Source: Aequorivita sp. H23M31
GTDB taxonomy: Bacteria > Bacteroidota > Bacteroidia > Flavobacteriales > Flavobacteriaceae
Assembly: GCF_004022485.1 (NCBI RefSeq)
Contig: NZ_CP034951.1
Coordinates: 2,046,001-2,110,000, forward strand
DNA: 64,000 bases
Direction: 5' to 3'
The position numbers were made by a program, and so were the translations under genes. The notes beneath the pieces were generated by a model, which was not told the DNA's origin, did no database searches, and saw only the letters and a list, made by a program, of their open reading frames with translations. Shown here one piece after another: positions 15,367-47,683 of the stretch (positions are counted from its first letter, which is position 1; every line of letters begins with the position of its first letter).

Positions 15367-18300
15367 TTACCCTACAATATTCACGATTTTTCCGGGTACA
15401 ACTATCACTTTTTTGGGCGTACGTCCTTCTAAATAATGAATTGTTTTTTCATGTGCCATTACGGCAGATTCGATTTCATCCTTGCTCAGATCCAATGGCA
15501 GTTCTAGAGTGAAACGCATTTTCCCATTGAAAGAGATAGGGTATTCCTTAGTGTTTTCTACCAAATACTTTTCCTCAAATTTAGGGAAAGGTGCAGTGGA
15601 AATACTTTCTGAATGTCCCAGCTTCTGCCATAGCTCCTCGGCGATATGTGGCGCATAAGGAGAAATAAGAATCGCGAGAGGCTCCAACACTTCTCGCGAA
15701 GTACATTTCTGGGCTGTAAGTTCATTTACCGCAATCATAAAAGTAGAAACAGAAGTATTAAAATGGAAATTCTCGATGTCCTCCTGAACTTTTTTGATGG
15801 TTTTGTGAAGGATTTTCAAGTCCTCCCCAGACCCCTTGTTCCCCTCCGGGGGAGTGTCAGTTACGTAAAAACTTTCGTCTGGTCCGGAATGATATAATTT
15901 CCAAAGTTTTTTGAGGAATCCGTGAACGCCGGTAATTCCGGCCATGTTCCAAGGTTTTGCCTGTTCAAGTGGACCGAGGAACATTTCATACATTCTTAGA
16001 GTGTCCGCGCCATATTTTTCGCAAATCTCATCGGGATTTACCACATTGTATTTGGATTTGGACATTTTTTCGACTTCTCTTGAAACTTTAAAGTCCCCTC
16101 CTGGCCTCCCCTGAGGGGAGGAGCTTGGCTCGTAAATACTTCCATCTTCAAGGATGAAAATTGCATTTTTATATTCTTCTCTCCAGTTTTTGAAGGCTTC
16201 GATGTATAGGTTGTTATGAGAATCCACGAATGAAACGTCTGCGTGAATTTTCATATCAGTCTCTGTAATTACTAAACTTTGGTCAGCTTCCGAAGCCATT
16301 TTCCCAATTATGTCAATATAGTTTCCAGATTTATATATGCCTTCGGATATAAATATAAATGGACTGAAGGTACTTGGATAAAAGTGAACAAACGCACTCT
16401 CCCCCAAAATCATCCCCTGATTAATCAACTTTTTAAATGGTTCTTCCACAGGGACCAAACCGCGGTCGTGCAGGAATTTTACCCAAAACCGGCTATATAG
16501 CAAATGTCCGGTGGCGTGTTCGCTTCCGCCAATATATAAGTCCACGTTTTGCCAGTAATCCAATGCTTCTTTTGAGGCGAAAACTTCATCGCGTTTACTA
16601 TCTGGATCATTTTTACCGGGTTCCATATATCGGAAAAGGTACCAGCTGCTTCCCGCCCAACCAGGCATGGTGTTTAATTCCAATGTGTAGATTCCATTTT
16701 CATTAGAAGACCCTTCGACTGCGCTCAGGGTGACATTTGGAACAACTTTTTTGTTTTTTTCATCCCAACTCCAGTTATCAGCGCGACCTAAAGGTGGCTC
16801 TCCGGTTTCCGTTGGAAGGTATTTTTCAACTTCGGGTAACCGTAAGGGCAAATATTCAGGTGAAATTGCCTGTGGCATCCCATCCTTATAATAAATAGGA
16901 AACGGTTCTCCCCAATAGCGTTGACGGCTAAAAACCGCATCACGAAGTCGGTAATTAATTTTGCCTTTACCAATTCCTTCTTCTTCCAAAGCTGCAATGA
17001 TTTTATCCGTGGCCTGTTGATAGTTTAGGCCATCCAGAAAATCACTATTGGTTATAATCGTATTTTCCTTATCGGAATATGCTTCCTCAGAAATATCGGC
17101 ATCCTTAAAAATATTTGGAATAGGAATATTAAAATGTTTCGCAAAATCATAATCCCGCTGATCCCCGCAAGGAACGCTCATAACTGCCCCAGTACCATAA
17201 CCTGCCAAAACATAATCCCCAATCCAAATTGGAAGTGGTTCTCCCGTGAACGGATGTTCTGCATAGGCACCAGTGAAAACTCCTGTAATGGATTTTACAT
17301 CGGCCATACGCTCCCGCTCGCTTCGTTTGGCAGTTTTTTCTATATACTTTTCAACTTCTTCTTTTTGTTCTGGAGTGGTGATTTTTGAAACCAGATCGTG
17401 CTCGGGAGCTAAAACCATGAAGCTTACGCCGAAGATGGTGTCGGGGCGGGTTGTGAATACCGAAATCCCCCTAACCCCCAAAGGGGGAATCTCACTCTGC
17501 TCTAAGGTTTTGGAAATTGTGTCTAAGACTTTATCAATGTTTCCGAGAACTTCTTCATTTGTAAAGCGAATTACCCTATATCCTAGCTCATTTAAAATTG
17601 AAGTCCTGGTTTCATCTTTTTCCTTCCGGTTCTCATGTATTCCTCCGTCAACCTCAATTACCAATTTCTTTGAAAGACAAACAAAATCGGCTATATAATC
17701 ATCAACTAGGTGTTGCCTTCTAAACTTGTACTCTAATTTTTTGGACTTCAAGCATTCCCATAGCATGGCTTCGGCCTCGGTAGGCTTATTTCTCATATCC
17801 TTAGCCCTTTCCAACAATAAACTTGAATTATTGCCGCCCGTCATATATCCGGGCCGAGTTCCTTCCCCTTTGGGGAAGGTTAGGATGGGGAATTTGACAG
17901 AAGCTCCTTTACTTCTTCCAATCCAATTAGTCTGAGAATCCTTCAACTGTTGCGGCCAGTCTATATCTTCTAAACCATCAAGTAAGCGCTGGGCGTATGC
18001 GGTGATTCGCATGCTCCATTGTTTCATTTTTTTTCGGATAACGGGAAAGCCTCCTCTTTCAGAAACACCGTTTACTATTTCGTCATTGGCTAAAACGGTT
18101 CCTAATTGCGGACACCAGTTAACTTCTGTTTCAGCGAGATAGGTAAGTCGGTATTTTAAAAGGATTTCCTGTTTTCTGGTTTCGGAAAAATCCAACCATT
18201 CTGAGGCAGTGAATTTTTCGGTGCCTTCATCACAAACAGCATTAATTTTTTTATTCCCTTCCGAAGAAAATATACTGCGCAATTCTTCTACCGAACGTGC

Positions 18301-19898: not shown

Positions 19899-19924
19899 TC
19901 CCCTTAACCCCCAGAGGGGGAATT
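19899..19924. repeat. Solo end-repeat of the leuS DUF559 element type
   Basis: The sequence starts TCCCCTTAACCCCCAGAGGG and ends GGAATT. It differs at only a few positions from the left end of the leuS element (CCCCCTAACCCCCAAAGGGG then GAAT). It abuts the ftsX stop codon and has no nuclease gene. Confidence 0.75.
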
Positions 19925-46297: not shown

Positions 46298-47614
46298 ATG
46301 TCAACGAAAACAGCGCCTTATACGGCTTACAAAGTAAAAGATATTTCTCTGGCAGATTGGGGAAGAAAAGAAATTGAACTTGCCGAAGCAGAAATGCCAG
46401 GACTTATGAGCCTGCGGGAAGAATACGGGAAAGAACAACCGCTAAAAGGTGCTCGCATCGCTGGTTGTTTGCATATGACAATCCAAACGGCAGTATTAAT
46501 TGAAACTTTAACTGCGTTAGGAGCCGAAGTTACTTGGAGTTCTTGCAATATTTTCTCTACTCAAGACCACGCCGCTGCTGCTATTGCAGCAACTGGAGTT
46601 CCAGTTTATGCTTGGAAAGGAATGAATGAAGAGGAATTTGATTGGTGTATTGAGCAAACATTATTTTTTGGTGAGGACCGCAAGCCCCTAAATATGATTC
46701 TTGATGATGGAGGAGATCTTACCAATATGGTTTTGGATAAATATCCTGAACTTGCTCAAGGTGTAAAAGGTATTTCTGAGGAAACCACTACTGGAGTTCA
46801 CAGATTATATGAACGTGTTAAAAAAGGAACTTTACCTATGCCTGCTATCAACATTAACGATAGCGTTACCAAAAGTAAATTCGATAATAAATATGGCTGC
46901 CGTGAAAGTGCTGTAGATGCAATTCGTCGCGCGACTGATGTTATGCTTGCTGGAAAACGTGTGGTTGTTTGTGGTTACGGAGATGTTGGTAAAGGAACCG
47001 CAGCTTCATTTAAAGGCGCCGGAAGTATTGTAACCGTAACCGAAATAGATCCTATTTGTGCTTTGCAAGCTGCAATGGACGGTTTTGAAGTGAAGAAATT
47101 GGAAACAGTTGTAGGCAATGCTGATATTGTAATTACAACAACGGGTAATAAGGATATCGTACGTGGAGAGCATTTTGAAGCGATGAAGGACAAAACAATT
47201 GTTTGTAACATTGGGCATTTTGACAATGAGATTGCAGTTGCCTGGCTTAAGAAAAACCACGGACATACGCACGTAGAAATTAAACCACAAGTTGATAAAT
47301 ACACCATAGACGGAAAAGATATTATTCTTTTGGCGGAAGGTCGTTTGGTAAACTTAGGTTGTGCCACAGGCCATCCAAGTTTTGTGATGAGTAATAGTTT
47401 TACCAATCAAACCTTAGCTCAGATCGAGCTTTGGAAAAATGGTGAAAACTATGAAAACGAAGTTTATATGCTTCCGAAACATTTGGATGAAAAAGTTGCA
47501 AAACTTCACTTGGAAAAAATTGGAGTGGAGCTTACTGAACTTCGCCCAGACCAAGCGGAATATATTGGTGTAACTGTTGAAGGGCCTTATAAGCCTGAGT
47601 ATTATAGATACTAG
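46298..47614 (+). CDS. ahcY: Adenosylhomocysteinase
   Basis: A 438-residue cytosolic enzyme that splits S-adenosylhomocysteine to adenosine and homocysteine and so drives methylation. It has [54 protein letters not shown] and the NAD motif [19 protein letters not shown], ending in the usual [10 protein letters not shown]. Its TAG stop is the first TAG of a heptamer tandem array. Confidence 0.97.
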
Positions 47615-47670
47615 ATGCTAGATGCTAGATGCTAGATGCTAGATGCTAGATGCTAGATGCTAGATGCTAG
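47611..47670. repeat. CTAGATG heptamer tandem array at the ahcY stop
   Basis: Eight perfect CTAGATG units plus CTAG. The first unit contains the ahcY stop codon. Since 7 is not a multiple of 3, TAG occurs in all frames of the array. Confidence 0.95.
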
Positions 47671-47683
47671 TGCAAATTTAAAA

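Follow-up and report, generated by a model that had tools for sequence, protein, structure and literature searches.

How does a nuclease-like domain come to lie in the reading frame of a leucyl-tRNA synthetase? The window analyzed here, a stretch of 64,000 nucleotides from Aequorivita sp. H23M31, carries a leuS gene (protein LeuRS) with a DUF559 domain between two palindromic ends, all of it readable in the frame of the host gene (Table 1). We consider it probable, at roughly 0.6, that we are dealing with a non-splicing, palindrome-ended nuclease element which spreads in a homing-like manner between the loops of a few proteins, with a putative role for the nuclease.

Table 1. The leuS gene of the window, its in-frame element, and further palindromes of the gene (positions are those of the window).
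Feature	Position	Strand	Remarks
leuS, leucyl-tRNA synthetase, host gene, 1137 aa	15367..18780	-	ORF; Pfam PF13603 (editing domain), PF00133, PF08264; single copy
Element: palindromic end, DUF559, palindromic end; 142 codons	17467..17892	-	In leuS frame
DUF559 nuclease-like domain, leuS aa 324-426	17503..17811	-	PF04480; putative active-site residues E337, D365, E376, D378, H382
End 2 (3' in leuS sense), hairpin CCCCCTAACCCCCAAAGGGGGAA	17467..17489	.	Sequence read
End 1 (5' in leuS sense), hairpin TTCCTTCCCCTTTGGGGAAGGTTAGGATGGGGAA	17859..17892	.	Sequence read
Further palindromic repeat CCTTCGACTGCGCTCAGG, reads TLSAVEG in leuS frame	16712..16729	.	Near second LeuRS loop
GC hairpin, reads SSPQGRPGG in leuS frame	16107..16118	.	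Just before KMSKS; P0005 has DUF559 there
Further GC hairpin, reads PPEG in leuS frame	15840..15852	.	Sequence read

The DUF559 match is strong (124.1 bits against a curated cut-off of 20.6; whole-protein E = 3e-36 in the Pfam search). The length of 426 bp is a multiple of three and the leuS frame is free of stops, whereas the other five frames contain 1, 5, 12, 13, and 17. The ends of the element form an imperfect inverted repeat with a CCCC-AAA-GGGG hairpin in each arm. None of 2000 mononucleotide shuffles reached their inverted-repeat score of 12.0, nor did any of 9080 pairs of equal spacing taken from the rest of the window, the best of which scored 11.5. Sequence, Pfam match, and shuffle test thus bear out the original prediction as to the coordinates, the complete in-frame DUF559 domain, and the inverted hairpin ends. 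The element lies where the LeuRS editing domain begins, with 'VKF' on one side and 'VFTTRPDT' on the other. Compared with plain alleles, the insert takes the place of about 10 loop residues (VKDHDAKI type), with a net gain of 133 amino acids. Thus, the element does measure 426 bp in frame, but it is no clean insertion of exactly 142 codons. The genome has one leuS copy (best hit 692.5 bits, next best of 4 hits 38.9 bits).

An artefact of assembly or annotation would be the most trivial explanation. However, the genome is a single contig of 3.68 Mb and the same type of junction is found in the independent relatives G015 and G016, so that an assembly error at the junctions, which the original prediction had named as a refuting condition, is most unlikely. 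A nuclease domain within an essential protein is also the usual look of an intein. No intein motif had been seen here before, and indeed Pfam gives no Hint match across the 1137-aa LeuRS at E values up to 0.1. Moreover, the boundaries of the inserts vary, 56 of the 231 ORFs or proteins that contain DUF559 have at least two copies (a sample biased towards multi-copy cases, with overlapping loci such as L173 and L180 counted twice), and ends which have no gene between them remain in frame. The absence of Hint, the multiple copies per protein, and the in-frame gene-less ends led us to reject an intein; that the element removes itself in some other way is most improbable.

Each of the 28 genus genomes has a leuS gene, and in eight of them (G000, G004, G007, G008, G015, G016, G021, G023) DUF559 fills this loop. 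Empty sites, for which an alignment with relatives had been proposed, do exist, as 20 of the 28 genes have no DUF559 there. These 20 comprise two plain loops, eight with AATTC-type and five with ATGAGTT-type tandem repeats, two with decayed repeats, two with a SSAVEK palindrome (G010 and G018, at the first LeuRS loop), and one with a stretch of unclear origin (G012); the repeat names are our reading of the letters. Beyond these genomes, 55 of 80 named leuS loci have the insert and 25 have none, figures which give no frequency because the insert was part of the query. The 25 include two forms with internal deletions (L107, L108), and among the 55 are Polaribacter and Tenacibaculum loci in which the active-site motif is gone (EFSGKED type instead of EVDGxxH). 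Three named loci have inserts identical to those of Aequorivita genomes (L046 to G016, L051 from A. todarodis to G023, and L052 to G021).

This distribution brings up the strongest rival explanation, passive insertion. A small number of exposed loops might tolerate any in-frame DNA, diverse intergenic repeats might land there by illegitimate recombination or replication slippage, and the DUF559 element would be one passenger among them, with its nuclease uninvolved. The leuS loop holds other or decayed repeats in 18 of the 28 genus genomes (with G012 of unclear origin), and since these repeats are free of a nuclease, loop tolerance alone may explain the positions. The insertion also recurs at this leuS loop in many genera. 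A free choice of the insertion point, as originally imagined, is therefore not what we see.

The further genus hosts of the DUF559 insert are methionine synthase (MetH) and RecG. With 26 of 27 RecG loci parsed, 15 are empty, six full, four hold a single palindrome (G025, G026, and in degenerate form G004 and G012), and one holds a remnant (G016). MetH site 1 gave a match in 21 of 28 genomes (not in G000), and 19 could be parsed: 14 are plain, two are full, and three hold a pair of ends without gene (G008, G023, G026). When filled and empty junctions of MetH and RecG are compared by eye, some loop codons are replaced and no target-site duplication is seen. G194 has two DUF559 copies in MetH, which align from AGCCCCCC to GGGGGGCT; the similarity ends there and thereby defines the limits of the unit. 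These copies are sisters (99/98), but with a dS of 1.95 the duplication is old and we rejected it as a recent event. A search for empty sites in the genus of G194 found G194 itself and no other genome. At the position of the second DUF559 of G194 the MetH genes of G005 and G016 hold an AATTC-type stretch (IIQNLEFRIQNYF and IIQNSEFRIQNYF, respectively), which is a further point in favor of passive insertion.

The domain is found in many more proteins. Querying with the insert alone retrieved 3089 matching proteins; among the 120 listed are LeuRS, MetH, IleRS, MetRS, a helicase, and an epimerase-type protein. A RecG query retrieved 912 proteins, in a set overlapping with the former, and most of the 120 listed are RecG from many Flavobacteriaceae. 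Such recurrence of DUF559 in many large proteins argues against passive insertion. Family-wide, 132 of 249 genomes have a DUF559 match, partial Vsr-like ones included, and in at least 38 genomes, counted by eye among the listed rows, DUF559 lies in a stop-to-stop frame of at least 340 aa. LeuRS has three insert loops and MetH at least three. Within the window leuS, palindromes are present at or near both remaining LeuRS insert loops (16712-16729 and 16107-16118), and other bacteria (e.g., P0003, P0021, P0082) hold a second DUF559 in LeuRS near the position of the TLSAVEG palindrome. We also observed DUF559 fused in front of a HemD-like gene in eight genomes, seven recognized by reading (L168, L169, L171, L172, L174, L175, L177) and one by its motif (L176), as well as a fusion to the end of HisD. 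The two names rest on our reading of the sequence, HemD presumably being uroporphyrinogen-III synthase. In a tree of 108 rows a single clade (99) gathers the HemD-type fusions, separate from the inserts that lie within proteins.

Are other DUF559 genes also bounded by inverted ends? Flanks of 220 bp were compared with 100 mononucleotide shuffles each, and a locus passed when it scored above all shuffles. Of the free-standing rows, 12 of 20 passed (11 of 18 distinct ones, as L043 and L179 are the same genes), and of the mechanical ORFs of the window that served as controls 0 of 48, in agreement with what had been predicted for DUF559 genes elsewhere. Among the inserts and fusions, 4 of 4 MetH rows passed, 29 of 71 LeuRS rows (a count with overlapping loci), 1 of 4 RecG, and 3 of 6 HemD rows, as well as 0 of 2 HemD-like rows filed as 'other' and 0 of 1 HisD. 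The modest shares in LeuRS, RecG, and the HemD-type rows (3 of 8) count against the reading that we prefer.

The palindromes are not confined to the element. Hairpins of the type CCCC-N(2-5)-GGGG occur at five places in the window, four within leuS and one (19908-19920) 1.1 kb beyond the leuS start. Genome-wide this pattern has 111 matches versus 48 for the reversed control. The last 22 bases of CCCCCTAACCCCCAAAGGGGGAA, the left end, are found at 12 places of the genome with at most three mismatches, itself included, versus none for the reversed control. L002, the other full DUF559 gene in this genome, bears another palindrome at its ends, of the GGTGGCTCGCTTGCGAG type, and the end sequence therefore varies between elements. 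Thus, the expected genomic copies of the ends were found for 22 bp of the left end, but not as one fixed sequence of 28-32 bp. The third DUF559 match of the genome (L003) is partial and lies in a gene that we read as Vsr-like; upstream of this nuclease gene are CTAGATG tandem heptamers (47609-47671 of the window, L003:1000-1062). Regular hairpin arrays were observed at G000:C1:1065865-1068459 (partly L163), 662235-663716, and 1862558-1864825, with a spacing of about 184 bp, 184 bp, and 97-114 bp, respectively, and the first array is about 220 bp away from the Y1_Tnp match L125. Long arrays of the hexamer GAAATC with CCCCTTTAGGGG hairpins in between occupy L165:880-1990. Further hairpins are present in 5 of 8 leuS genes with the domain versus 4 of 19 in the genus and in 14 of 49 versus 5 of 24 among the named leuS loci, and we do not claim that DUF559-bearing leuS genes gather more of them.

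Whether the element moves by itself can be judged from trees. The leuS trees hold 51 of 57 rows; L090 and L093 (long) and L045, L046, L051, and L052 (duplicates of genus genomes) were left out. In the tree of the leuS flanks the eight Aequorivita sequences are one clade (SH-aLRT 100). In the insert tree, by contrast, G000, G015, and G016 lie close to Dokdonia and Maribacter, whereas the remaining five are found close to Aquimarina, Leeuwenhoekiella, and Arenibacter. A single clade of Aequorivita inserts was rejected (log-likelihood difference 51.6, AU p = 0.0117, 0% of 200 bootstraps) in a test which was run after a quick tree had already been viewed. Thus, the inserts moved independently of leuS and entered the same loop on at least two separate occasions, rather than by movement of the whole gene. 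We infer movement of the element from these trees and from the allele states, that is, from sequence comparison. The notion of a selfish element which spreads into coding genes is in part supported, by the conflict of the insert tree with the leuS tree and by the empty sites, although its insertion point is not free.

The tree of 108 rows (out of 288 domain hits, with a subset of the LeuRS rows and at most nine rows per MetH site) reveals in addition that the inserts group by host gene. It needs 11 changes of the gene label, with nine as the least possible number and 65 as the mean of shuffled labels. Such gene-bound lineages are not expected from random landing and speak against passive insertion. 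Changes of loop within a gene are seen as well. In IleRS, P0006 and P0017 have first-loop copies which group with the P0006 copy at another loop (99/92), while the first-loop copies of P0011 and P0018 stand apart (100/98); in MetH, P0013 has a site-1 copy which clusters with copies of site 2 (100/99). A grouping of 95/99 hints at a jump between MetH and MetRS, but neither of the two one-clade tests rejects (p = 0.224 and 0.297) and we do not claim it.

Homing might leave a gradient of identity near the site by co-conversion. No such gradient was found in the flanks of 27 genus leuS genes, a comparison of low power given their high divergence. This and the occupation of the same loops by other repeats are the reasons why we rank passive landing first among the rivals. 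The dS comparisons of insert and flank point in opposite ways (0.80 for the insert versus 2.05 for the flank in G000/G015, 1.44 versus 0.95 in G015/G016), and we do not claim that the insert is younger than its host. Insert dS ranges from 0.41 to 1.95 in 13 pairs; hence no very recent movement has been caught.

The nuclease domain itself provides a further argument. In 57 leuS inserts the putative active-site residues are conserved in 57 (E337), 57 (D365), 56 (E376), 49 (D378), and 47 (H382) cases, and 47 inserts have all five. The ten exceptions are L073, L090, and eight rows of a single Polaribacter-type lineage (L078, L082, L083, L085, L087, L088, L091, L092; Polaribacter, Tenacibaculum, and a Flavobacteriaceae bacterium). 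Together with a low dN/dS of 0.03-0.14 in 13 insert pairs this conservation speaks against a nuclease that is uninvolved, and on balance we regard passive insertion as rather unlikely. In the alignment A2, which comprises 31 of 48 leuS inserts, the five motif columns are invariant; as the eight Polaribacter-type rows were left out, A2 flatters the motif and we prefer the count of 57 rows. When a strict pattern of the motif was applied, 25 of 265 rows failed, several of which keep the residues and deviate at neighboring positions alone. The A2 profile matches PDB 3hrl, an endonuclease-like protein (E = 5e-32), and with positions 62-131 PDB 3r3p, a 'Mobile intron protein' (E = 6.6e-7), which has N and W at the positions of D378 and H382. 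We take 3r3p to be the homing endonuclease I-Bth0305I. It had been proposed that a free nuclease could start at an internal ATG. This ATG is present in 17 of the 31 A2 inserts (counted by eye), and a separately started nuclease is therefore no general feature.

Could the domain instead be of use to its host protein, for example by contacting nucleic acid or in regulation, with occasional horizontal spread? The Polaribacter-type LeuRS inserts have lost the active-site motif and the palindromes and are nevertheless retained under purifying selection (dN/dS about 0.10 in both Polaribacter pairs). They are possibly domesticated remnants, and they demonstrate that purifying selection is no proof of nuclease use. 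The near-constant length of about 845 aa in most full-length RecG proteins with insert (among the 120 listed) would also fit a useful domain. However, at each of the three sites examined DUF559 is absent in most genus relatives, internally deleted derivatives exist in leuS, and the same domain is found at several unrelated loops of unrelated enzymes. Domestication appears quite improbable to us.

We therefore prefer the homing-like nuclease element and suggest the following scenario. The element of about 430 bp would belong to a family of small mobile elements which consist of two REP-like palindromic ends and a DUF559 gene, similar to Vsr and restriction endonucleases. With one reading frame alone open across both ends and the gene, the element can reside in a protein as a permanent, non-splicing domain. 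Its niche would be the length-tolerant loops of a few large conserved proteins, namely LeuRS, MetH, RecG, IleRS, and MetRS. The nuclease, produced within the host protein, might cut alleles or loops which lack the element, and repair could then copy the element in, as in homing. The target would mostly be the same loop in a related species and sometimes a different loop of the host gene. At a later stage the nuclease gene may be lost while the palindromes stay behind.

How does this compare with known systems? In REP/RAYT systems a gene for a Y1 (HUH) transposase lies between palindromes. Dispersed hairpin palindromes, solo and paired, and the gene of a DNA-acting enzyme between two of them are common to both, but here the enzyme is DUF559 and not a Y1 transposase, and on this ground we rejected a RAYT-driven REP. 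Of the seven Y1_Tnp matches in the genome, our reading covered the surroundings of L126, most fully, and a portion of L163. L126 (L162:1400-2540) is situated amid many TATTACCTTAGTAA-type repeats, which are unlike the GC palindromes. MITEs and solo IS ends resemble the MetH end-pairs without gene (G008, G023, G026) and the single palindromes in RecG (G025, G026). Terminal inverted repeats, as in classical IS or MITEs, are present in the window copy and mixed in other copies; in contrast to these elements no target-site duplication is seen and the full element is without a known transposase. Rickettsia palindromic elements are likewise palindromic repeats which lie in frame in protein genes and are translated within the protein, according to PMC10969869. 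They measure about 150 bp and code for a conserved peptide (PMC10969869), whereas the leuS element has about 430 bp and codes for a DUF559 nuclease-like domain. I-Bth0305I is of the EDxHD homing type, and homing endonuclease genes often lie within self-splicing introns or inteins or are free-standing (both from PMC3943268). To the EDxHD or Vsr-like homing endonucleases the insert shows a detectable similarity in nuclease sequence (3r3p, E = 6.6e-7, with two motif positions different), and it is like them in the recurrent single position and in an insert tree independent of the host. The likeness to homing, as judged by sequence, ends with the fact that the DUF559 insert is unspliced and stays in the host protein. 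In the literature searched, by title and opening of the abstract and largely without subscription journals, we found no description of a palindrome-ended in-protein element with DUF559.

In the usual view, selfish DNA either avoids essential genes or leaves them by splicing. The nuclease-coding element described here appears to reside openly as a domain of LeuRS, MetH, RecG, IleRS, and MetRS in many Bacteroidota. Tentatively, and at slightly less than even odds, we propose a distinct class of mobile elements: a hairpin-ended nuclease gene whose niche is the inside of essential proteins, which is translated within the host enzyme and never spliced, which its own nuclease copies into the corresponding loop or a different tolerant one, which forms gene-bound lineages across the Bacteroidota, and which leaves behind end-pairs and solo palindromes, a possible source of some of the GC palindromes in these genomes. 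If true, long enzymes which a source names 'DUF559 domain-containing protein' would be explained by such elements, part of the palindromes of these genomes would have a candidate source, and proteins could acquire an entire domain in a single step.
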